Assembly (NCBI GenBank): GCA_937861115.1
Contig: CALMBD010000306.1
Location: forward strand, 1-57,938
Direction of reading: 5' to 3'
Length of the DNA stretch: 57,938 nucleotides
From: an uncultured Bacteroidota bacterium
Lineage (GTDB): Bacteria; Bacteroidota; Bacteroidia; Chitinophagales; Saprospiraceae
In this document: positions 41,009 to 53,368 of the stretch, piece by piece
Layout: every line of letters starts with the position of its first letter
Position numbering within the stretch: position 1 is the stretch's first letter
Notes under the pieces: model-generated
What the model saw: the letters and a program-made list of their open reading frames with translations, nothing else
Databases searched by the model: none
Told to the model about the DNA's origin: nothing
Translations under genes and position numbers: made by a program

Positions 41009-44000
41009 TTACACCACAACATTGATCATTCGGCCGGGCACAAAGACCACTTTGCGGGCGGGTTTTCCTTCCATCCACTTCTGTACCATTTCCAAAGCGA
41101 GCGCTGCCTGCTCCGCGTCGTGGGCCGTAACATCTGAAGGCAGTTCAATCGTCGCGCGCAGTTTTCCGTTGATCTGGATCGGGTAGTTCACCGTATCCGT
41201 TTTCAGGTATTCCTCGTTGTATACCGGCCAGGCGGCATCACATACGGTTGTGTCATGACCGAGTTGATGCCAGAGTTCTTCTGCAGTATGCGGGCCGAAG
41301 GGCGCCAGCATGATCACGAGGGGCTCCAGGGCGGCTCGTTTTGAAGTGTTCAGACGGCGCAGTTCGTTTGTGGCGATCATAAAATGGCTGACGCAGGTAT
41401 TCATGCTCATCCGTTCGATATCATCGGTCACTTTTTTGATGCAGGTATGCAGCACGCGCAGTTCCTCCTTCGTCAGGTCTTCATCCGACACAGAAAACGC
41501 ACCGCTTCCGTTGAAGAACAATCCCCAGAACTTTTTCAGGAATCCGCTCACGCCGCTGATGCCCTGCGTATTCCAGGGTTTCGCATCGGTGATCGGCCCC
41601 AGGAACATTTCGAACATACGGAAACAATCGGCGCCGTGCTCCGCGACGATATCATCCGGATTGACCACATTGTACTTCGATTTCGACATTTTTTCGACCT
41701 CGTAGGAGCAGGTGTAATGCCCTTTTGGGTCGAGTTTGAAATTGGCCTTCTCAAACATGGGTTGGGTGCGGGCCTTTTCCAGGTTCAGGATGTCGGCATC
41801 CACCAGGTTCACATCGACGTGCAGCTTGGTGAAGGCGTCGGGATGGTATTTGTACAACAGGTTCTCCGATACAAACAATTGCTCGCAAACGGGCTTTTCC
41901 GTCGATGCGATATATTTCTCCCTGCTCTGCAAGGCGGCGCGAATTTTTCCGGCAGTCACATCGGGTTCGTTGATATGATCGATCAGTTCTTCGGTGAACA
42001 ACACCATCAGGCGTTTGCCATCTGCCAGCGCCGATTTGTACACGCGGGCGATTTTCTCTTCCTGGCGCCACGACGTGACCTCGATAACCAGGTCATTGGC
42101 CTCGAAAGCAAAATCGTACTGAAATTCCTCTTCATAGTCCGGCTCCGCAATAACCATCGGCCCCATGTCCGCAAAAAACGGTTTCAACACCTTGATCATC
42201 AGGTACTCTTCAAAAAACTGCTCCTTGGCGCGGTAAACAAAGTTGGAACGCCCCTGGATCATCCCCTGGTTGACCAGTTTACGGGCAAATTCGCGGTGCG
42301 GCACAAGGCCCAGGTCGTAGAGAAAGTGGTTCCAGAAACGGCTGTACAGGAGGTGTCCCACAGCGTGTTCGGCGCCGCCGAGGTAAAAATCGACCTGTTG
42401 CCAGTAGTTGATAGCCGGGCGACTGCAAAATTCACCGTCGTTGTGGGGGTCCATGTAGCGGTAAAAATACCATGACGACCCTGCCCAGCCCGGCATGGTG
42501 CTGAGTTCGTATTGGTGGCCCTTGTAGTTCCAGCCTTCTGCGCGGCCCAGCGGCGGCTCGCCGGTTTCCGTAGGCAGGTATTTGTCGATATTGGGAAGCA
42601 CCAGCGGCAGGTCGCTTTCTTCGATGAGCCGGGGCACATCATCGACCCAATAGGCAGGAACCGGCTCGCCCCAGTAGCGCTGGCGGCTGAACACGGCATT
42701 GCGCAATTTGTACTGCGTTTTTCCTTTGCCCAGGCCGTTTTGCTCCAGCCAGGTGATCAGGGTGGGCACTGCCTCTGCATAAGGCATACCGTTGATCATG
42801 TCCGAATTGATATAGCGGCCTTCCTTGGTGGGGTCGGCAGCCTGGTCCAGGTCTTTCTGGGCATCCAGAATAGGCACAATGGGCAGTTTGAACTGCGTAG
42901 CGAAATTCCAGTCGCGCTGGTCGCCCGAGGGCACGGCCATGACGGCGCCCGTGCCGTAACCCGCCAGCACATAATCGGCGATCCAGATGGGTATCCGTTC
43001 GCCGTTGAACGGATTAATGGCATAAGCCCCTGTAAAGACGCCGGTGACTTTTTTGGTCTCCGCCATACGGTCTATTTCCGAGCGGGAGGCCGCCCACCTG
43101 GTATAGGCGTCGACTTCCGTGCGCTGTTTATCCGTGGTGAGTTGTTCCACCAGTTCGTGTTCGGGTGCCAGCACCATGAAGGTCGCGCCGTAGATGGTAT
43201 CCACACGCGTCGTAAACACCTCGATAAATGCCTGGTCATGGCCATCCACCGCAAAACGAACGGAAGCGCCGACGGAGCGGCCGATCCAGTTGCGCTGTTG
43301 TTCCTTGATCGAATCGGGCCAGTCGATGCCGTCCAGGCCTTCGATCAGGCGGTCGGCATAGGCGGTGATGCGCATATTCCACTGGTTCATCAGTTTGCGC
43401 TCCACCCGATGACCGCCACGCTCGCTGACGCCATCTTTTACCTCGTCGTTAGACAATACGGAGCCCAGGGCAGGGCACCAGTTGACGTATGCTTCTCCGG
43501 GATAGGTCAGCCGGTATTTCAACAGCAGCAGGAGTTGTTCCCGTTCGCTCATGGCATTCCATTCGGCGGCGCTGAAGTTCGGCGTATCGTCGTCGCAAAC
43601 GGCTTTGATGCCCGCGTTGCCGGACTGGGCGAACCGCTTCACCAGATCACTGACCGGCATGGCTTTATTGGCCGCGCTATCGTAATAGTGGTTGAACAAC
43701 TGCATGAAAATCCACTGGGTCCATTTGTAAAAAGCCGCGTCGCTGGTACGCACCTCCCGACTCCAGTCGAATGAAAAGCCTATATTATCCAGTTGTTCCC
43801 GGTAGCGGACGATGTTCTGCTCGGTGGAAATGGCGGGATGGATTCCTGTCTGTATGGCGTACTGTTCCGCCGGCAGGCCGAAGGAGTCGTATCCCATAGG
43901 GTGCAATACGTTGAATCCACGCATCCGCTTGTACCGCGCCAGGATGTCGGTAGCAATATACCCCAGCGGGTGACCGACGTGCAGCCCCGCTCCGGAAGGA

Positions 44001-44122
44001 TAGGGGAACATGTCGAGAATGTAGTACTTTGGCTTGTCGGGATGATCCTCAACCTTGTAGGTCTGGTGTTCTTTCCACCAGTTGCGCCATTTCTGCTCGA
44101 TGTCGGACGGGCGATATTCCAT
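41009..44122 (-). CDS. leuS: Leucyl-tRNA synthetase with a nuclease-fold-like insertion
   Basis: 1037 residues, roughly 95 more than the Bacteroides enzyme as I recall it (about 943). It charges tRNA-Leu. Seen: HVGH (residues 48-51, class I HIGH box), editing domain about 225-430 with TTRVDTIYGATF and the editing Asp in PSGDQRDWNFA, KMSKS at 811-815, and an anticodon-binding helical domain (about 860-980). Between RSNFVYR (625-631) and FVSENL (750-755), where homologues have only a few residues, there are about 118 extra. They include EFQYDFAFEANDLVIEVTSW and KSALADGKRLMVLFTEELID, which resemble a PD-(D/E)XK/DUF559-like core (Asp670, Glu681) with Thr683 in the usual Lys position. The frame is uninterrupted and the rest is intact, so the enzyme should be active. 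Confidence 0.96.
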   Translation of the reverse strand: MEYRPSDIEQKWRNWWKEHQTYKVEDHPDKPKYYILDMFPYPSGAGLHVGHPLGYIATDILARYKRMRGFNVLHPMGYDSFGLPAEQYAIQTGIHPAISTEQNIVRYREQLDNIGFSFDWSREVRTSDAAFYKWTQWIFMQLFNHYYDSAANKAMPVSDLVKRFAQSGNAGIKAVCDDDTPNFSAAEWNAMSEREQLLLLLKYRLTYPGEAYVNWCPALGSVLSNDEVKDGVSERGGHRVERKLMNQWNMRITAYADRLIEGLDGIDWPDSIKEQQRNWIGRSVGASVRFAVDGHDQAFIEVFTTRVDTIYGATFMVLAPEHELVEQLTTDKQRTEVDAYTRWAASRSEIDRMAETKKVTGVFTGAYAINPFNGERIPIWIADYVLAGYGTGAVMAVPSGDQRDWNFATQFKLPIVPILDAQKDLDQAADPTKEGRYINSDMINGMPYAEAVPTLITWLEQNGLGKGKTQYKLRNAVFSRQRYWGEPVPAYWVDDVPRLIEESDLPLVLPNIDKYLPTETGEPPLGRAEGWNYKGHQYELSTMPGWAGSSWYFYRYMDPHNDGEFCSRPAINYWQQVDFYLGGAEHAVGHLLYSRFWNHFLYDLGLVPHREFARKLVNQGMIQGRSNFVYRAKEQFFEEYLMIKVLKPFFADMGPMVIAEPDYEEEFQYDFAFEANDLVIEVTSWRQEEKIARVYKSALADGKRLMVLFTEELIDHINEPDVTAGKIRAALQSREKYIASTEKPVCEQLFVSENLLYKYHPDAFTKLHVDVNLVDADILNLEKARTQPMFEKANFKLDPKGHYTCSYEVEKMSKSKYNVVNPDDIVAEHGADCFRMFEMFLGPITDAKPWNTQGISGVSGFLKKFWGLFFNGSGAFSVSDEDLTKEELRVLHTCIKKVTDDIERMSMNTCVSHFMIATNELRRLNTSKRAALEPLVIMLAPFGPHTAEELWHQLGHDTTVCDAAWPVYNEEYLKTDTVNYPIQINGKLRATIELPSDVTAHDAEQAALALEMVQKWMEGKPARKVVFVPGRMINVVV

Positions 44123-44929: not shown

Positions 44930-46939
44930 CTACTGCCCCACAACAATTTTGTGCACCACCCTGCCCATGTCCGTTTCCACCACCAGCAGGTACATGCCAG
45001 CAGGCTGTCCTGTAAGCGGCAACTGGAATGCGGCAGCCGATACTGTTTGCCGGAGCACGACTTTGCCAGGCATATCAAGCAGCAGCACCTGTCGGGGCTG
45101 CGCACCGTCAACCTGAACCGCAACACTTGCTATGGCCGGGTTGGGGGACACATAAACAGCTACCCCGCTGCCGGGTTCAGACACCGGTGTACCGCTGAAA
45201 TCGACCACCCTGCAAAACTTATCCGAACACGACCCGGCGAAATTGCTGATCGTCAGGCAGATCTGGTATATGCCGGGTACTGTGTACTGGTGTGTCAGCG
45301 AATCGAAATAACCGGAATGGTTGCTCCCGTCGCCAAATTCCAGGTACCAGGACTCGGCGCTGTACGACGAATCGCTCAGGATAACCGTATTGCCGGGACC
45401 TGTTTCCAGGCTGAAATAGGCCTTGCAAGCTGCATCGGGGCAACACTTGCCTTCCCGCCATCCGGTGATGCCGTTGGCCTGTGCAGTACAGGCATTGTCG
45501 TACGTGACATTGTCACAACCGCAGACGGGGTCATAAATTTCCGGACAGGGCGTCTGCGGGTCTACCCACGCGGGGTTGAGGCACGCATCCGGACAAATAC
45601 CTGACATCCAGGAAGTTACGCCGTAGTAGTATTTTGCCACGCACTCGTTGGGATAGGTCACGCCATCGCAACCGCAAACCGGGTCATAAACAGCGGGGCA
45701 CAAGATCGAAGGATCAATCTGATTTGGATCGATGCAGGATACTTCCGGCACATGAATGGTTTTACAGATACTTGTGCCGCATTGCATACCGCCGTCGGAA
45801 AGCCCCGATACGGTCAGGCAAACAGTGTAATCGCCCGGCGTCTGAAAATTGATCACCGGATTCTGTTCGAAGGACGTCTCGCCATTCCCGAAATCCCAAT
45901 ACCAGCTGCTGATACTGCCGGACGGGAATGCCGAGCGGTCGAAAAAACTGAAGTAGGTCAGCGAACCGCCGGTATTTATTCCCTCGAAGTCGATGTACAG
46001 GTTATTGCACGCACTGCCGCAAATGCCGGGCACCCAGGAAGTGACACCGCCGTAATTTTCCGCTGCACAGGCATTGTCGTAGGTCACGCCGTCGCAGCCG
46101 CAGACCGGAATAAAAGCCAGGGGACAGGGCACACTGAGGTCGATCTGGCTGCTGTCGACACAGCCGGTAGTTACCTCAAACGCCTTGCATACGGTGCAGG
46201 TCTGTGGGGCAAAATCGCCGGTAGGATACGTCGCGCACAACACGTGGCGTCCGGGTTCGCTGAACTGATACACAAAATCGGGTCCGTTGCCGGTAACCTG
46301 GTCGTTGTCGAGCGACCAGGTGGTGAAGAAAAACGGAAACGGTGGCGGTATAGCTGCGGGGAAGAGTATGGCATGCAGTTTGGCGCCGTCCAGACTGTGT
46401 TTGATGTTGTAAAAACACCCGGATTGGCAGCCGCCGCTCACGGTAATGATCTCGCAGTATGTCCTGGTACACGACACGCCTGTATTGGTCTGGGCCTTTA
46501 TCGTCAGGCAGACTTTGTAAACACCGGGTTCTGTGAAGTAGTGCTGCGGACTTTTTTCCTGGGATGTGGCGCCGTCTCCAAAATCCCAACTCCAGCTCAG
46601 CAGGCTGCCGTTGCTGATCTGGCTTTCATCGGAAAAGTTGATGTTCAGAGGTCCGTCGGGCATGGGCGACCAGGAGTACTTTACAATAAGGGAAGCACAA
46701 TCGGAGGCGCCGCATTCGCCGGAAGTCCACGACGTAACACCGCCAAAATACTGGGCCTCACACTCGTTGCCGTAGGTAAGGCCATTGCAACCGCAAACAG
46801 GGTCGTATATTGCCAGGCAAACCGCGTCCGGGTCTATCTGGGTGGAGTCAATACAATTATTCTGGGCGGAAACATTTGCCGCCAAAGCCATACACAACAG
46901 CAAAAACAATCGGAAAGGGATTTGAAACATTGAATTCAT
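44930..46939 (-). CDS. Kazal-like / PKD surface protein with T9SS type A tail
   Basis: 669 residues (a second ATG three codons in gives the same signal peptide, MFQIPFRLFLLLCMALAANV). Four Kazal-like modules are visible at about residues 29-76, 260-307, 402-449 and 453-499, each with the pattern C-x-x-x-Y-D/I-P-V-C-G-C-D/N-G-x-T-Y-x-N-E/A-C. Between them lie PKD domains (about 83-168, 312-398, 505-583; WDFGDGATSQEKSPQHYFTEPGVY). The C-terminus (592-669; VSPNPAIASVAVQVDG, PAGMYLLVVET) is a type A sorting tail. Kazal modules can inhibit serine proteases, but the reactive loop here is not tested. Surface-exposed; target unknown. Convergent with the SnoaL lipoprotein gene. Confidence 0.9.
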   Translation of the reverse strand: MNSMFQIPFRLFLLLCMALAANVSAQNNCIDSTQIDPDAVCLAIYDPVCGCNGLTYGNECEAQYFGGVTSWTSGECGASDCASLIVKYSWSPMPDGPLNINFSDESQISNGSLLSWSWDFGDGATSQEKSPQHYFTEPGVYKVCLTIKAQTNTGVSCTRTYCEIITVSGGCQSGCFYNIKHSLDGAKLHAILFPAAIPPPFPFFFTTWSLDNDQVTGNGPDFVYQFSEPGRHVLCATYPTGDFAPQTCTVCKAFEVTTGCVDSSQIDLSVPCPLAFIPVCGCDGVTYDNACAAENYGGVTSWVPGICGSACNNLYIDFEGINTGGSLTYFSFFDRSAFPSGSISSWYWDFGNGETSFEQNPVINFQTPGDYTVCLTVSGLSDGGMQCGTSICKTIHVPEVSCIDPNQIDPSILCPAVYDPVCGCDGVTYPNECVAKYYYGVTSWMSGICPDACLNPAWVDPQTPCPEIYDPVCGCDNVTYDNACTAQANGITGWREGKCCPDAACKAYFSLETGPGNTVILSDSSYSAESWYLEFGDGSNHSGYFDSLTHQYTVPGIYQICLTISNFAGSCSDKFCRVVDFSGTPVSEPGSGVAVYVSPNPAIASVAVQVDGAQPRQVLLLDMPGKVVLRQTVSAAAFQLPLTGQPAGMYLLVVETDMGRVVHKIVVGQ

Positions 46940-47314: not shown

Positions 47315-50300
47315 ATGAAAAATTTAATCACGACCCTTGTGGCGATGTTGCTTTTGGTAACAGGCGCTCAGGCGCAATTTGCGCGGTTGCAGGTCATTCA
47401 CAACGCGCCCGACCAGGCCGTTGATGTGTACCTGAACGGTGTGCTTGCCCTGAATGACTTTGCCTTTCGTTCCGCCACCCCTTTTATCAATGTCCCGGCC
47501 GGTGTATCGCTGACGATCGCCGTGGCACCGGCAAGCAGCACTTCGGCCGCCGATGCCTTTTTCTCCGAAACACAGACCCTTCAGAACGGGTCGACGTATG
47601 CCGTTACGGCTTGCGGTATTGAGGGGGATCCGGTGACGCCTTTCACCCTGGTCATCGACGCCAATGCCCTCGAGGGTTCTCCCGACCCGACAAAGGTCGA
47701 CCTCAACGTACTGCACGGCGCACCGGATGCACCGGCCGTGGATGTAGTGGTGCGCACCGGCGGCAAGATCGTGTCCAATCTCGCCTACGGTTCGTTTACG
47801 CCTTATCTCAGCGTCGACCCCGGCGTATATTACCTGGATGTAAAACCGGCAGGCGGCAACGCCATTGTCGGCACCTTTAAGGCAGACCTCACGACACTGG
47901 CAGGCGGCGCGGTGCGCGTATTCGCCAGCGGCCTGCTGAACGGGACACCCGGATTCGGGCTGTTCGCCGCGCTGTCCAACGGCACGGTTGTGGAACTTCC
48001 CCTCACGCCGGTCGCCCGGGTGCAGGTCATCCATAATTCGCCTGACCCGATCGTAGACGTTTACGTCAACGGCACATTACTGCTCGACGATTTCGAGTAT
48101 TTTACAGCCTCGCCATTTGTATTTGTGCCTGCTGGCACAGGAGTCAATATCGGTATCGCACTCGACAACAGTATTTCGGTAGAAGATACCCTGGTCAATG
48201 TGAAAGCCGATCTTCTCAACGGCAGCACCTATGTCATCGTCGCCAACGGCATCGTAGGCGACCCGAATGCCCCTTTCGAACTGGTTATCAACGACAATGC
48301 ACGCGAAGCGGCATCCGACACCGCCAAGGTCGACATTACGGTGTTTCACGGCTCCCCCGATGCACCGGCGGTCGACATCGACGCCATTTTTGTCGCCAAT
48401 GACGCCGTTACCAATCTCGCCTACGGCAGTTTTGCACCCGGTTACCTGGGGCTCGACCCGGAGATCAACGACTTTACCCTCCGTGTTGCCGGTACCGGCA
48501 ACATTGTCAATACTTACCGCGCCGACCTCGGCACGCAGAAAGGAAAGGCCGTGACGGTCTTTGCCGGCGGTTTCCTCGCGGGAGCGCCCAATTTCGGCCT
48601 GTTCGCAGTGCTGACCGACGGAACCATACTACCTCTGGGCATCACCCCGAAAGCGCGCCTGCAGGTGATCCATAACTCCCCGGCGCCCACCGTCGACGTA
48701 TACGCCGGCTCGGTACTGCTGATCGACAATTTCGCTTTCCGTACCGCTACGCCCTATATCAATGTACCGGCCGACCGCAATATCAAAATTGGCGTCGCAC
48801 CGGGAAACAGCGCTTCTGTTGCTGACGCGATCGCTACGATCCCCGTTAACCCACAGGCCGGCAAAGTGTATGCGGCGTTTGCCGGCGGCATCGTCGGAAA
48901 CGCAGGTACGCCGTTTACCCTTTTCGTCGATGAGTCGCGGGAAGCGGCGCTCGACCCCAACAATGTGGAATTTAACGTACACCACGGCTCTCCGGATGCC
49001 CCACCGGTCGAAGTGGGCATTGCCGGCATCGGAAATGTGATCGGCAATATCGCCTACGGCGCATTTTCGCAGTATTTCAGCCTGGCTCCCAGTACATACC
49101 AGATTGAGGTCAAACCCACCGGTTCGCCCGATGCGCCGGATGTGTTCATCGCCAATCTTACCGGGCTCAATGGCGCAGCAGCACGCGTATTCGCCAGCGG
49201 GCTGGCGAGCGGCACACCTGATTTCGGTCTGTTTGCCGCGCTGCCAGATGGTTCTGTCGTCGAATTCCCGCGTCAAAAAGGACCTGCACGGGTGCAGATC
49301 ATCCACAACGCGCCAGACCAGACGGTCGACGTTTATGCCAACGGCACATTGGTTGCCGACGATCTGGCGTTCCGGACGGCCACACCGTTTACCGATATTT
49401 CCGGCGGTGCAAACGAAATAGCCGTCGCACCGGCAAACAGCACTTCCGCGGCCGATGCATTTGCAACGTTCCAGCTCACCCTTGAACCGGAATTCACCTA
49501 CGTGGTAACGGCGGTAGGGGTGGCCGGCGGCAGTCCGGCATTCGATCTGGTGGTCAATACCGACGGACTCGAACAAGCCGTCAGTGCAGCCAAAGTGGAC
49601 ATTTCCGTTGTGCACGGCGCGCCTGACGCACCGGCAGTAGACGTCGATGCTGTGTTTGTCGCCGACAATGTCGTCAGCAACCTCGCCTTCGGCGCTTTCA
49701 CCCCTTACCTGTCGCTCGACCCGGACAAGTACGACTTTGCCATCCGCGCCAACGGCTCGGCAAGCGTCGTGGCATCGTATCGCGCCGACCTGAGCGCGCT
49801 GGCCGGCGGAGCAGCAACAGTTTTCGCCAGCGGCTATCTGGGCAGCACGCCGACGTTCGGATTGTTTGCCGCGTTCCCCGACGGGACGGTGGCCGAATTA
49901 CCGATTACCCCGCTCGCCCGCGTCCAGGTGGTGCACAACGCACCCGAACCAACGGTGGATGTATATGCCGGAAATACCCTGTTGCTCGACAACTTTGTGT
50001 TCCGCACTGCAACGCCTTATGTGGAAGTTCCAGCAGACCGTACGTTTAGCGTCAACGTAGCGCCCGAAACCAGCGCCTCTGCTGCCGACGCCATAGCCTC
50101 CTTCCCGGTCAGTTTTGAGACCGGAAAACTGTACCAGGCCTTTGCTTCCGGCCTCGTCGGTGGCAGCCCGGCCTTCGATCTGCTGGCAGACGAGGCAAGA
50201 GGCATTGCCCAGAACCCCGCAAAAGTGGAGTTTTCCACACACCACGGCGCTCCCGGCGCACCGGCAGTCGATGTATCCATTTTTGGCGCCGGACCGATCG

Positions 50301-53300
50301 CCAGCAACCTGACCTACGGCGATTTTTCAAACTATCTTGCCGTAGACCCGGGCAGTTACCTGGTGCAGGTCAAACTGGCCGGAACGAATACCGTGGTAGG
50401 TACGTATCAGGCGGATCTGAGCGGACTGACCGGCGCTGCTGCGCGCGTGTTTGCCAGCGGACTGGTTGGCGGCATGCCGGGCTTCGGTCTGTTTGCCGTG
50501 CTCGCTGACGGTACGGTGGTGGAATTCCCGCAGGTGGCCAACCCCTCCTCGGCACGCCTGCAGGTCATACACAACAGCCCGTCGCCCACCGTCGACGTGT
50601 ACGTGAACGGCGACCTGCTGCTCGACGATTTTACCTTCCGCACGGCAACACCCTTTATTGATGTGCTGGCCAATGTGCCGCTGTCCATCGCGGTTGCGCC
50701 CGGCAACAGCGCTTCGGTAAATGATGCTGTCGCTACCTTCCCCGTCACCTTTGCAGAAGGTGAAACGTATATCGTGACGGCTTCCGGTATTTTGGGCAAT
50801 CCAACCACGCCGTTTACCCTGATCACCAATACGAACGGTCGGGAAACCTCCAATGTACCCGGCCGCGTGGATGTAGCCGTGCTGCACGGCGCACCCGACG
50901 CGCCCGCCGTGGATGTCGACGCCGTATTCCTCGCCGATAATGTGGTGGAAAACCTGTCGTACGGGCAGTTTACCCCATACCTCAGCTTTGATCCCGGGAA
51001 ATATGATCTCGCCGTGCGGGCCAACGGCACAACCACGCCGGTGGCTACCTATCGCGCCGACCTGAGTGGCCTGGCTGATGGCGCCGCCTATGTATTTGCA
51101 AGCGGACTGCTGGGTGGTACGCCGGCCTTCGGGCTGTTTGCCGCGCTGCCCGACGGTACGGTGATCGAATTCCCGCTCACCCCGACCACACGGGTGCAGG
51201 TGGTGCACAACTCCCCTACTCCGACCGTAGACGTATACGCAGGAAATACCCTGCTGCTCGACAATTTTGAATTCCGCACGGCCACGCCTTTCGTGAATAT
51301 TCCCGCCGACCGCGACATCGAGATCGGCATTGCACCGGACAACAGCACCTCTTCCGGCGACGCTATCGCCACCTTTACCGCAAATTTTGCCACAGGCAAG
51401 ACCTACATGGTGATGGCAGCGGGAGTTGTCGGCAGCACAGACAAACCTTTCAGTCTGTACATCGACGATCAGGCGCGGGAAACGACCGCACCCGGCTTTA
51501 CCACCCTGGGCGCCTTCCACGGCCTGTTCACCACGTTTAACCTCAACCTCGACTTGTCGGAACGCCTGATCGGCACACTGTACGACGACCTTGCGTTCGG
51601 TACTTTCACCCCCTACACGGACCTGGCCGACGACGATTACTTTATCGATATCACCGAGACGGGTACGACCGATCTGCTGGGCACGCACTATATCGATCCT
51701 GCGCTCTTTGCAGGCAAAACAGCGCGCCTGTTTACCAGCGGTATCCTCGGCGGCGACCCGGCGTACGGCCTGTTCGCGGTGTTTGCCGACGGGTCGGTGG
51801 TTGAACTGCCCTACACCCCGGTGGCAAGGGTGCAGGTCATCCACAACAGTCCGTCGCCGACCGTCGATGTGTATGCCGGAGACCTGCTCCTGATCGACGA
51901 CTTCGAGTTCAGGGCGGCTACTCCGTTCTTCTACGTACCGGCAGAGGTGCAGGTTGACCTGGGCGTAGCGCCCGGCAACAGCCAATCGTCGGCCGACGTG
52001 ATCGCCTCTTTCCCCGTTACATTTGACAACCGCAAGACCTATGTGGCGGTAGCCAGCGGTATTGTGGGTGGAACGCCCGGCTTCGACCTGATCGTGAACG
52101 ATATGGGTCGCGAACGGGCCCTCGACGACACGCAACTGGAACTCGCCATCCTGCACGGCGCGCCCGGCGCGCCGGACGTGGATATCACGCCGCTGGGCGG
52201 AAGCACGCCGCTGGTGGCAAACCTCCAGTACGGAGAGTTTACTGATTATCTGGGCCTCACGCCGGACGTTATTCTGCTCGACCTGACGCCGAGCGGTCTG
52301 CCGAACCAGTCTATAGGTATCTGGGGCGGCGACTTCACGGGACTGGACGGTCTGGTGGGCGTTGTTTTTGCCAGTGGACTGATCGATGATGATCCGGAGT
52401 TTGACCTGTGGGTGGCGTTGCCCGACGGCACGACCTTCCCGCTGCCGTCTTTCGCCAGGGTGCAGGTGATCCACAACGCGCCCAGTCCGACCGTCGATGT
52501 TTATTACGACGATGTCCAGGTTCTGGACGACTTCGAGTTCCACGAAGCTACGAACATCGGTCTTTTCCCGGCAAGAACGCCGTTCACGCTCTCGGTAGCA
52601 CCCGGCACCAGCACCTCCGTCGGCGACGCGATCTACGCCTTGCCTGTCGATCAGTTGGAAACCGGCAAAACCTATATCATCATGGCCGCAGGCGTGGTGG
52701 GCGGCACCCCCGGATTCGGGCTGTTTATCAATGAAAACGGCCGCGAACGGGCGTTCAACAGCGCCAATGTGGAAGCCTCTTTGTTCCACGGTTCGCCTGA
52801 TGCCCCGGAAGTAGACGTGCAGTTGCAGGGTGGTCCGGTACTATTTGACAATGTATCGTTTGGCGAATTCGCCGATTACATCAGCGTTGCGCCGACAGCC
52901 TACACCATTCAGGTGACGCCTGCCAACGACAACAACGCGATCGTGAAAACGTACAATGCAGACCTGAGTTCCCTCACCGGTCAGGCGATCACGGTGTTCG
53001 CATCGGGATACCTCACCGGCCAGCCCGGCTTCCAGGCCTGGGTGGCTGAAACCGACGGCGATACCTATCCGCTTGAAGAGATCGTGAAAACCAACGAACT
53101 GGACGACATCCTCGGCAACTTCGGCATTTCGCCGAACCCGGCCGTCGACAACCTGTTGGTGCGGTTCAACCTCAGCGGATCGGAGGCCCTGCACTACGGT
53201 ATCCGCGATGTAGCCGGCCGACTGATGCTCGAAGGCGACTTCGGAACGGTGAACGCCGGTGCATTTGCGCAGCAAATCGACCTCGGCAGGCTCCCGTCCG

Positions 53301-53368
53301 GCATGTACCAGTTGGAAATCGTCTCCGACGCGGGCTTGCGCGTGATGAAGTTTGCCGTGCAGCGCTAA
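47315..53368 (+). CDS. Giant DUF4397 array protein with T9SS type A tail
   Basis: 2017 residues. Signal peptide about 1-21 (ATLLLVTGAQAQ-type end). Nine tandem repeats of about 212 residues each fill residues about 23-1925; each is two DUF4397 halves. The A-half starts R-V/L-QVIHN-x-P-x-P-x-VDVY and has F-R-x-ATPF-x-x-VPA. The B-half has HG-A/S-PDAPAVDV, L-x-YG-x-F-x-x-Y and VFASG-x-L-x-G-x-P-x-FGLFA. Repeat 7's B-half is degenerate (HGLFTTFNLNLDLSERL). The sorting tail starts GISPNPAVDNLLVRFNLSG and ends GMYQLEIVSDAGLRVMKFAVQR. DUF4397 domains are extracellular and of unknown ligand. The repeats are similar but not identical, so this is an old duplication. A terminator follows at 53393-53443. 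Confidence 0.95.
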   Translation: MKNLITTLVAMLLLVTGAQAQFARLQVIHNAPDQAVDVYLNGVLALNDFAFRSATPFINVPAGVSLTIAVAPASSTSAADAFFSETQTLQNGSTYAVTACGIEGDPVTPFTLVIDANALEGSPDPTKVDLNVLHGAPDAPAVDVVVRTGGKIVSNLAYGSFTPYLSVDPGVYYLDVKPAGGNAIVGTFKADLTTLAGGAVRVFASGLLNGTPGFGLFAALSNGTVVELPLTPVARVQVIHNSPDPIVDVYVNGTLLLDDFEYFTASPFVFVPAGTGVNIGIALDNSISVEDTLVNVKADLLNGSTYVIVANGIVGDPNAPFELVINDNAREAASDTAKVDITVFHGSPDAPAVDIDAIFVANDAVTNLAYGSFAPGYLGLDPEINDFTLRVAGTGNIVNTYRADLGTQKGKAVTVFAGGFLAGAPNFGLFAVLTDGTILPLGITPKARLQVIHNSPAPTVDVYAGSVLLIDNFAFRTATPYINVPADRNIKIGVAPGNSASVADAIATIPVNPQAGKVYAAFAGGIVGNAGTPFTLFVDESREAALDPNNVEFNVHHGSPDAPPVEVGIAGIGNVIGNIAYGAFSQYFSLAPSTYQIEVKPTGSPDAPDVFIANLTGLNGAAARVFASGLASGTPDFGLFAALPDGSVVEFPRQKGPARVQIIHNAPDQTVDVYANGTLVADDLAFRTATPFTDISGGANEIAVAPANSTSAADAFATFQLTLEPEFTYVVTAVGVAGGSPAFDLVVNTDGLEQAVSAAKVDISVVHGAPDAPAVDVDAVFVADNVVSNLAFGAFTPYLSLDPDKYDFAIRANGSASVVASYRADLSALAGGAATVFASGYLGSTPTFGLFAAFPDGTVAELPITPLARVQVVHNAPEPTVDVYAGNTLLLDNFVFRTATPYVEVPADRTFSVNVAPETSASAADAIASFPVSFETGKLYQAFASGLVGGSPAFDLLADEARGIAQNPAKVEFSTHHGAPGAPAVDVSIFGAGPIASNLTYGDFSNYLAVDPGSYLVQVKLAGTNTVVGTYQADLSGLTGAAARVFASGLVGGMPGFGLFAVLADGTVVEFPQVANPSSARLQVIHNSPSPTVDVYVNGDLLLDDFTFRTATPFIDVLANVPLSIAVAPGNSASVNDAVATFPVTFAEGETYIVTASGILGNPTTPFTLITNTNGRETSNVPGRVDVAVLHGAPDAPAVDVDAVFLADNVVENLSYGQFTPYLSFDPGKYDLAVRANGTTTPVATYRADLSGLADGAAYVFASGLLGGTPAFGLFAALPDGTVIEFPLTPTTRVQVVHNSPTPTVDVYAGNTLLLDNFEFRTATPFVNIPADRDIEIGIAPDNSTSSGDAIATFTANFATGKTYMVMAAGVVGSTDKPFSLYIDDQARETTAPGFTTLGAFHGLFTTFNLNLDLSERLIGTLYDDLAFGTFTPYTDLADDDYFIDITETGTTDLLGTHYIDPALFAGKTARLFTSGILGGDPAYGLFAVFADGSVVELPYTPVARVQVIHNSPSPTVDVYAGDLLLIDDFEFRAATPFFYVPAEVQVDLGVAPGNSQSSADVIASFPVTFDNRKTYVAVASGIVGGTPGFDLIVNDMGRERALDDTQLELAILHGAPGAPDVDITPLGGSTPLVANLQYGEFTDYLGLTPDVILLDLTPSGLPNQSIGIWGGDFTGLDGLVGVVFASGLIDDDPEFDLWVALPDGTTFPLPSFARVQVIHNAPSPTVDVYYDDVQVLDDFEFHEATNIGLFPARTPFTLSVAPGTSTSVGDAIYALPVDQLETGKTYIIMAAGVVGGTPGFGLFINENGRERAFNSANVEASLFHGSPDAPEVDVQLQGGPVLFDNVSFGEFADYISVAPTAYTIQVTPANDNNAIVKTYNADLSSLTGQAITVFASGYLTGQPGFQAWVAETDGDTYPLEEIVKTNELDDILGNFGISPNPAVDNLLVRFNLSGSEALHYGIRDVAGRLMLEGDFGTVNAGAFAQQIDLGRLPSGMYQLEIVSDAGLRVMKFAVQR
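47381..53080 (+). repeat. Coding tandem repeat, nine units of about 635 bp
   Basis: Units begin near 47381, 48013, 48652, 49286, 49915, 50552, 51187, 51824 and 52453, each marked by the RxQVIHN codons. Unit lengths are 629-639 bases. Nucleotide identity between units is moderate, so the array is conserved at protein level. Strong codon bias also opens long spurious frames on the reverse strand here. Confidence 0.9.

Follow-up and report, generated by a model that had tools for sequence, protein, structure and literature searches.

The leucyl-tRNA synthetase (LeuRS) encoded in the window, by which we mean the whole 57,938-nucleotide stretch of DNA that was analyzed, carries within its leucine-specific domain (LSD) an insert of 118 residues that very likely has a nuclease fold. 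As a whole, the best explanation, in which we place moderate confidence, is that a DUF559/Vsr-like domain, inserted in frame long ago, may now serve a structural role within the LSD and no longer cut. The enzyme matched 1h3n at E 2.2e-187 in a phmmer search of the PDB. It was the only LeuRS found in a search of its own genome, where two other matches were short, with weak E values of 1.8e-5 and 2.6e-5. Phmmer, Pfam and motif reading showed a bacterial LeuRS with catalytic, editing and anticodon domains. The original prediction had held the synthetase's active-site motifs and editing Asp to be intact, and all were found: HVGH at residue 48, GDQRD of the editing domain at 400 and KMSKS at 811. 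The gene and its parts are as follows.

41009..44122, minus strand: leuS, LeuRS of 1037 amino acids (ORF, PDB phmmer, Pfam, own-genome search)
42263..44122, minus strand: N-terminal part of LeuRS, residues 1-620, with a history different from that of the C-terminal part, residues 809-1037 (trees)
41876..42229, minus strand: the insert, 118 residues (632-749), PD-(D/E)XK/DUF559-like (alignment, profiles, model, Foldseek)
42113..42115, minus strand: Asp670, putative first catalytic acid
42080..42082, minus strand: Glu681, putative second catalytic acid
42074..42076, minus strand: Thr683, at the place of the catalytic Lys
42053..42055, minus strand: Lys690 (Glu+9, where the second helix begins), which may be a candidate for a lysine that has moved
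41699..41875, minus strand: rest of the LSD, residues 750-808, downstream of the insert

The ORF and its motif positions bear out the prediction of about 118 extra residues, 632-749, between RSNFVYR (residues 625-631) and FVSENL (starting at 750), inside the LSD, which precedes KMSKS. Of the nucleotide coordinates first given for the insert, 41888..42229, the upper end stands and the lower end falls four residues short of 41876. Asp670, Glu681, Thr683 and an LMVLF strand were located where they had been placed. The short connector of the IKDTHT type that had been given for the Bacteroides enzyme exists as IKDTNTFVS, which occupies the place of the insert in two relatives of the class (L281 and L282). 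The insert resembles the LSD of bacterial LeuRS in its place directly before KMSKS and differs from it in length and in its nuclease-like fold: the distance from NQGMI to MSKS is 74 residues in L281 and L282, and the window LeuRS has 118 more. In the part of the class rows in which the region could be cut out, the LSD varied widely in length. At one extreme, three LeuRS (L232, L251 and L273) have almost no LSD, with about 7 residues separating the two motifs that were used; at the other, the stretch exceeds 100 residues by a good margin and is of other kinds. Another extra block in the window LeuRS, at residues ~144-205, breaks the alignment to the Thermus thermophilus enzyme. Elsewhere in the window, 44933-46939 encodes a 669-amino-acid protein with Kazal-type inhibitor and PKD domains and a C-terminal sorting-domain match just under the cutoff, and 47315-53365 encodes a 2017-amino-acid protein with 16 matched DUF4397 stretches and a C-terminal secretion sorting domain.

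We modeled the insert and a same-site relative with an intact ExK center (L093) with AlphaFold, in both cases from shallow alignments. The window insert reached a pLDDT of 80.9 with the order a-b-b-a-b-a-a-b (18 alignment rows), and the relative reached 91.7 with the order a-bbb-a-b-a-a (10 rows). All elements of the core a-b-b-b-a-b topology are present in the L093 model. Structure prediction, which had been proposed as a check, did not show the nuclease core to be lacking in the window insert; of the three early strands of the core, its model has only two assigned ahead of the second helix, the other being weak. Foldseek placed the same PDB entry first for both models, namely 3r3p (catalytic domain of I-Bth0305I, a homing endonuclease), with E 6.1e-3 for the window insert, 9.0e-4 for the ExK model and a probability of 1.00 in each, and no PDB match of the window insert had an E value below 1e-3. 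The next ranks for both models were chains of the Toxoplasma or Tetrahymena mitoribosome, with Vsr at rank 9, all at E > 0.01. EDxHD enzymes are a family of homing endonucleases, to which I-Bth0305I belongs. Although I-Bth0305I is the best structural match of both models, the LSD insert differs from it in that it lies in no known intron, has no intein domain among its Pfam matches, shows no present sign of mobility and is without the lysine of its kin.

Comparisons at the sequence level pointed to DUF559. The window insert alone matched only PF18742 (DpnII-MboI) in Pfam, at 19.5 bits against a cutoff of 27 (E 7.5e-4); DUF559 (PF04480) was not among its matches, and no Pfam cutoff was passed. 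When 20 insert rows were scanned, DUF559 exceeded its cutoff of 20.6 bits in 5 of the 14 tested rows from two groups of same-site relatives with ExK: L037 (31.9), L038 (28.0), L040 (25.7), L091 (21.0) and L104 (26.5). It scored below the cutoff in L039, L095, L098, L099, L102, L107 and L108 and was absent from the Pfam matches of L041, L097 and six rows of the window's clade (L024, L031, L034, L035, L036 and L078). Together with the predicted structures and Foldseek, the matches above the cutoff support the original description of the insertion as nuclease-fold-like. We then compared profiles of the window clade (A3), of ExK inserts from other Saprospiraceae (A4), of Bacteroidales inserts (A5) and of 22 in-frame DUF559 copies (A6). 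A3 matched A4 at 97.7% (E 1.8e-12), A4 matched A5 at 98.4% (E 8.8e-15), and A6 was matched by A4 at 98.1% and by A5 at 97.8%. The matches of A3 to A5 (79%, E 1.6e-5) and to A6 (68.5%, E 4.6e-5) were weak. The insert therefore resembles DUF559 in its predicted fold, in its conserved D and E and through the relatives that pass the curated cutoff, and it differs in remaining below any cutoff itself and in its third residue, which is T or V where in-frame copies have D and kin have K. On these comparisons we would assign the insert, with considerable confidence, to descent from the DUF559 group.

Other identities were considered. A PDB profile search with A1, a profile of the insert that includes LeuRS flanks, returned six matches, all weak at E above 0.04, with I-Bth0305I at 0.061, and a known LeuRS module was thus not supported. 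As to a defense protein, the single PADLOC match of the window insert was Cas10b, at E 0.04, and two relatives had none. Like homing-endonuclease inteins, the insert is a nuclease domain nested in an essential protein; unlike them it has only 118 residues and, as read from its sequence, Ala at the junction, with no intein family among its Pfam matches. A self-splicing intron was not supported either, since positions 41500-42600 matched nothing in Rfam at E values of up to 1.

DUF559 domains also lie in frame within many other Bacteroidota genes. With profile A2, at least 138 of 395 class genomes and at least 120 of 296 phylum genomes were matched (at most 9 and 13 candidates, respectively, being scored per genome), many of them inside long frames. 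Regions were fetched for 40 of these matches, in addition to loci already at hand. In eight host frames checked with Pfam, listed here, DUF559 was found at E 1.4e-25 to 6.6e-36; other hosts were named by eye from their flanks.

L184: class I synthetase with DUF5915 (IleRS-like; we take DUF5915 to mark IleRS)
L220: PheT
L218: RecG
L201: RecJ
L190: MetH
L139: acetyl-CoA synthetase
L183: SpoIIE phosphatase
L214: MutS

LeuRS itself is a recurrent host. Our class survey covered 90 genomes, 88 of which had a LeuRS match; with ten fragmentary or weak genomes left out, 77 LeuRS besides that of the window were examined, a few of them cut by a contig end or frame. DUF559 was found in 13 of the 77, at two places and in none at the LSD.

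Near residues 291-297: seven LeuRS (L182, L186, L199, L212, L293, L294 and L147)
Near residues 533-552: six LeuRS (L185, L194, L196, L200, L205 and L269)

When six of these LeuRS were aligned to insert-free proteins from their own genus or family, in-frame insertions appeared at both sites; in two alignments the aligner split the gap. The point of interruption in MutS is shared by two families, f36 (L214) and the window's own f1 (L311), and the copies in RecG, MetH and acetyl-CoA synthetase have the same host flanks within each host gene. Congeners of the window genome carry in-frame copies in IleRS-like proteins (L312, L313 and L314), MutS (L311), a helicase-like frame (L310) and, in L316, a frame that partly matches HemD; Pfam confirmed DUF559 in L311, L312, L313, L314 and L316. 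The window's own genome has one as well (L309, G000:C183:17500-20232), where DUF559, at ~2308-2622, shares a reading frame with a helicase-like protein at the end of a contig. The search of relatives detected PF04480 in 18 of 40 of them and in 2 of 14 control genomes. A tree of the in-frame copies was poorly resolved, with copies of different host genes intermixed and 13 site changes, a number that has no shuffled control.

The flanks of these copies are partly repeat-like. A GEG-like motif, chosen after the flanks had been seen, lies beside DUF559 in 32 of 56 distinct host frames and is lacking in 24; its rate is 4.5 per 1000 residues near the domain versus 0.30 elsewhere. DNA arms were compared for two copies. 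In the LeuRS gene L212 the domain sits between 24-nucleotide inverted arms that are 96% complementary, and in L309 it sits between perfect 41-nucleotide inverted arms (2209-2249 and 2688-2728), with a third copy of the repeat at 2118-2158. The flank motif occurred in none of 87 LSD-insert rows, which overlap and are not all distinct, and no long inverted repeats were found around the window insert, only a 14-nucleotide pair at 86%. Homology of the insert to in-frame DUF559 domains in many genes, the recurrent sites of these domains and the flanks that part of them have support the earlier suggestion of a fossil homing-type element; we infer that the in-frame copies are mobile. One report (PMC10969869) describes Rickettsia palindromic elements as in-frame mobile DNA in unrelated genes that is not spliced, about 150 bp long and encoding a short peptide. 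The DUF559 copies would resemble these elements in their splicing-free in-frame insertion into unrelated genes and differ in carrying a nuclease-like domain of ~110 residues; the LSD insert differs further in having no palindromic flanks.

To judge how the LSD insert is shared, we searched 60 genomes, including the window's own: 36 congeners and 23 others of the order. The LeuRS match was unbroken across residues 632-749 in 33 of the 36 congeners, and the insert itself was read in 29 of these; the insert is therefore not an assembly artifact. The other three congeners were not assessable, G029 being a fragment and G004 and G014 having no LeuRS-like match among the matches listed. No loss was seen among the 33 assessable congeners. 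Outside the genus, the order was represented by 23 genomes, some of them fragments, and an unbroken LeuRS match over the insert occurred in none. At E 1e-3 or better, A1 matched 15 of 150 genomes of the family. Full-length matches, in frames of 1032-1060 amino acids, came from 11 of the 150, the window's genome included; the remaining matches were a partial one in a 404-amino-acid frame of G488, which may be a LeuRS fragment, two short separate ORFs and one that covers the LeuRS flank only. Another 19 related loci have 23-73 residues where the window insert sits. In the sample of 395 class genomes, A2 gave five full-length matches, that of the window and four from a single family, f82. The single window insert, as a query of 395 class genomes, matched only the window itself, and profiles were needed. 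A scan of genome contigs with one peptide pattern found 49 loci, whose titles include Saprospiraceae, Bacteroidales, Lentimicrobiaceae, Chitinophagales and Sphingobacteriia, among others. A locus titled Thermoanaerobaculia is probably a misbinned contig. The comparison with LeuRS of relatives, proposed earlier as a measure of how widely the insert is shared, thus found it common to the whole genus and to other lineages.

With a quick method and 108 columns we built a tree that covers 81 domains: 7 of the 18 rows of A3, 10 of A4, 9 of A5 and 55 other DUF559 copies. L217 had been dropped for its long branch and L218 as a duplicate of L197. The 26 LSD-site inserts fell on one side of a branch and the 55 other copies on the other, with an SH-aLRT support of 97.8. 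Support was 100 for the window clade, 99.6 for A5 and only 77.6 for A4. Independent insertions at the LSD site are not favored, since the LSD inserts form one clade, albeit in a quick tree search with few columns. In trees of the LeuRS body the insert carriers do not all group together, so a single origin needs many losses or transfers.

The LeuRS of the genus is a mosaic. In trees of 70 LeuRS, 10 of them genus rows, residues 1-620 joined the window and seven of its congeners to L034 and to the L042-L053 set, which lacks the insert (support 100), and congeners L031 and L032 have a different version of this part. Residues 809-1037 instead placed all ten genus rows in one clade (98.8). The conflict between window 42263-44122 and 41012-41698 holds both ways: AU tests rejected a single clade of the genus for the N-terminal part (p-AU 1.5e-5) and the N-terminal grouping for the C-terminal part (p-AU 8.5e-5), the tested groups having been named after the trees were seen. 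These conflicting trees imply that the upstream part was exchanged, with a breakpoint somewhere around the LSD, and the likeliest reading is that the insert and the C-terminal part stayed together meanwhile. Homing is not needed as a cause, because recombination of the upstream part suffices when the C-terminal data unite the ten genus rows.

We next considered whether the insert still has a nuclease center. In 40 distinct full-length inserts of the window clade, Asp670, Glu681, Lys690, Lys703 and Arg704 are each present in all 40, and the place of the lysine is taken by T in 28, V in 12 and K in none. The substitution of Thr for the usual Lys noted originally is therefore right and extends through the clade as T or V. 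The catalytic D...(D/E)xK pattern, absent here, is found in same-site kin (K in 18 of 19 A4 and A5 rows), with ExK in all 10 A4 rows and in 8 of 9 A5 rows. The ninth, the Bacteroidales LSD insert L107:4028-4342, has ExN. Three of the four f82 inserts, which lie outside A5, have ExK and one (L127) has ExR; the ExN and ExR variants are separate changes of the lysine. Because the in-frame copies of A6 have ExD (22 of 22) at the position where LSD kin have ExK, the LSD type is not a simple copy of the in-frame elements. From these residues, nuclease activity has probably been lost in the window clade.

One alternative would be a nuclease that is still active through Lys690, cutting DNA in homing, or RNA when charging of tRNA(Leu) is disturbed. 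The invariance of Asp670, Glu681 and Lys690 and the ExK center retained by Saprospiraceae and Bacteroidales relatives speak for it, and migration of the lysine is known in the PD-(D/E)XK superfamily. Lys690 does not look like a replacement, however, since the ExK relatives also have K (all A5 rows) or R (nearly all A4 rows) at its position. Moreover, a nuclease within a single-copy essential enzyme would need control, and nothing points to present movement of the LSD insert, which forms one clade and within the genus travels with the C-terminal part of the gene. We consider this alternative improbable. For the sensing of tRNA damage, which had also been suggested, no support was found.

The insert might instead bind nucleic acid without catalysis, holding the acceptor arm of tRNA(Leu) beside the LSD and tuning aminoacylation or editing. 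The Toxoplasma mitoribosome chains that follow directly behind I-Bth0305I in Foldseek reach a probability of up to 0.93 with the window insert, at an E value of only 6.4e-2; that these chains hold RAP domains is a presumption, which counts against the argument. The invariant Lys690, Lys703 and Arg704 are consistent with such a role. Mean net charge, on the other hand, is -8.4 in A3, compared with -4.7 in A4, -0.3 in A5 and -1.2 in A6, and this strong acidity of the window-clade inserts, beyond that of the other groups, speaks against a broad nucleic-acid-binding surface. Outside evidence comes from the RAP domain of FASTKD4, which is reported (PMC11879112) to be Vsr-like, to bind RNA and possibly to have no nuclease activity, and from a title cited in PMC5059758, by which the LSD modulates aminoacylation and proofreading. 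The insert would share with the FASTKD4 domain a Vsr-like fold apparently without nuclease activity; RAP is used on RNA, whereas the LSD insert is acidic and its contact with RNA hypothetical. We regard a binding module as unlikely.

The insert is under purifying selection and is mostly somewhat less constrained than the rest of the enzyme. In the six closest congener pairs (Nei-Gojobori, dS under 0.9), its dN/dS of 0.052-0.132 shows that it is constrained; the values were 0.041-0.064 for residues 1-620 and 0.024-0.064 for residues 809-1037, the insert having 0.9 to 2.7 times the value of residues 1-620. Eight further pairs with more saturated dS gave up to 0.27 for the insert and 0.21 for residues 1-620; these figures come from 14 of 435 pairs, which are not mutually independent. 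That ratio could also fit a neutral passenger, kept since precise deletion is rare and an unfolded insert harmful, as could the small number of family genomes with full-length matches and the related loci with 23-73 residues in its stead. We think a passenger hardly probable: none of the assessable congeners has lost the insert, though loss or absence is common elsewhere, and Asp670, Glu681 and Lys690 are invariant beyond what folding alone seems to require.

We therefore return to an old DUF559/Vsr-like insertion. The PD-(D/E)XK domain would have been inserted in frame, long ago, into the LSD of LeuRS, descending from in-frame, splicing-free DUF559 elements of the kind still present in many Bacteroidota genes. 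It may have been captured once at this site, with the ExK center kept in two lineages and the lysine lost in the window's clade, where the fold would still be held by selection. There the insert would no longer cut DNA or RNA and may belong structurally to the LSD, with LeuRS now depending on it for folding or for placing the end of its tRNA. It is thus probably an old, fixed, noncatalytic descendant of an in-frame, splicing-free mobile nuclease. In our judgment a structural role is the most likely, followed by contact with tRNA, with activity through Lys690 or a passenger less likely; a mainly structural role, our residual hypothesis, we regard as an even call.

In the full-text literature, mostly nonsubscription papers, we found no description of a nuclease-like insert module in LeuRS, an absence that is not proof; the insert is, however, common to the genus and occurs in other lineages. 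No text joined "leucyl-tRNA synthetase" with "DUF559," the titles of DUF559 papers concerning other matters, and within the same scope no description of a class of in-frame DUF559 mobile elements was found. The in-frame DUF559 copies point to such a candidate class. Tentatively, Bacteroidota may harbor a family of splicing-free, homing-like in-frame DUF559 elements with palindromic ends that occupy tolerant, fixed sites in essential genes and are retained in the protein, with LeuRS as a hot spot (three sites); its LSD element would have been captured once, lost its lysine in the window clade and become a permanent domain. Nuclease-like insertions lying in frame in essential genes form one end of a series that has, at its other end, a fixed and apparently dead nuclease domain in an aminoacyl-tRNA synthetase; this series makes the gain of domains by essential enzymes from mobile DNA, without splicing, directly testable.
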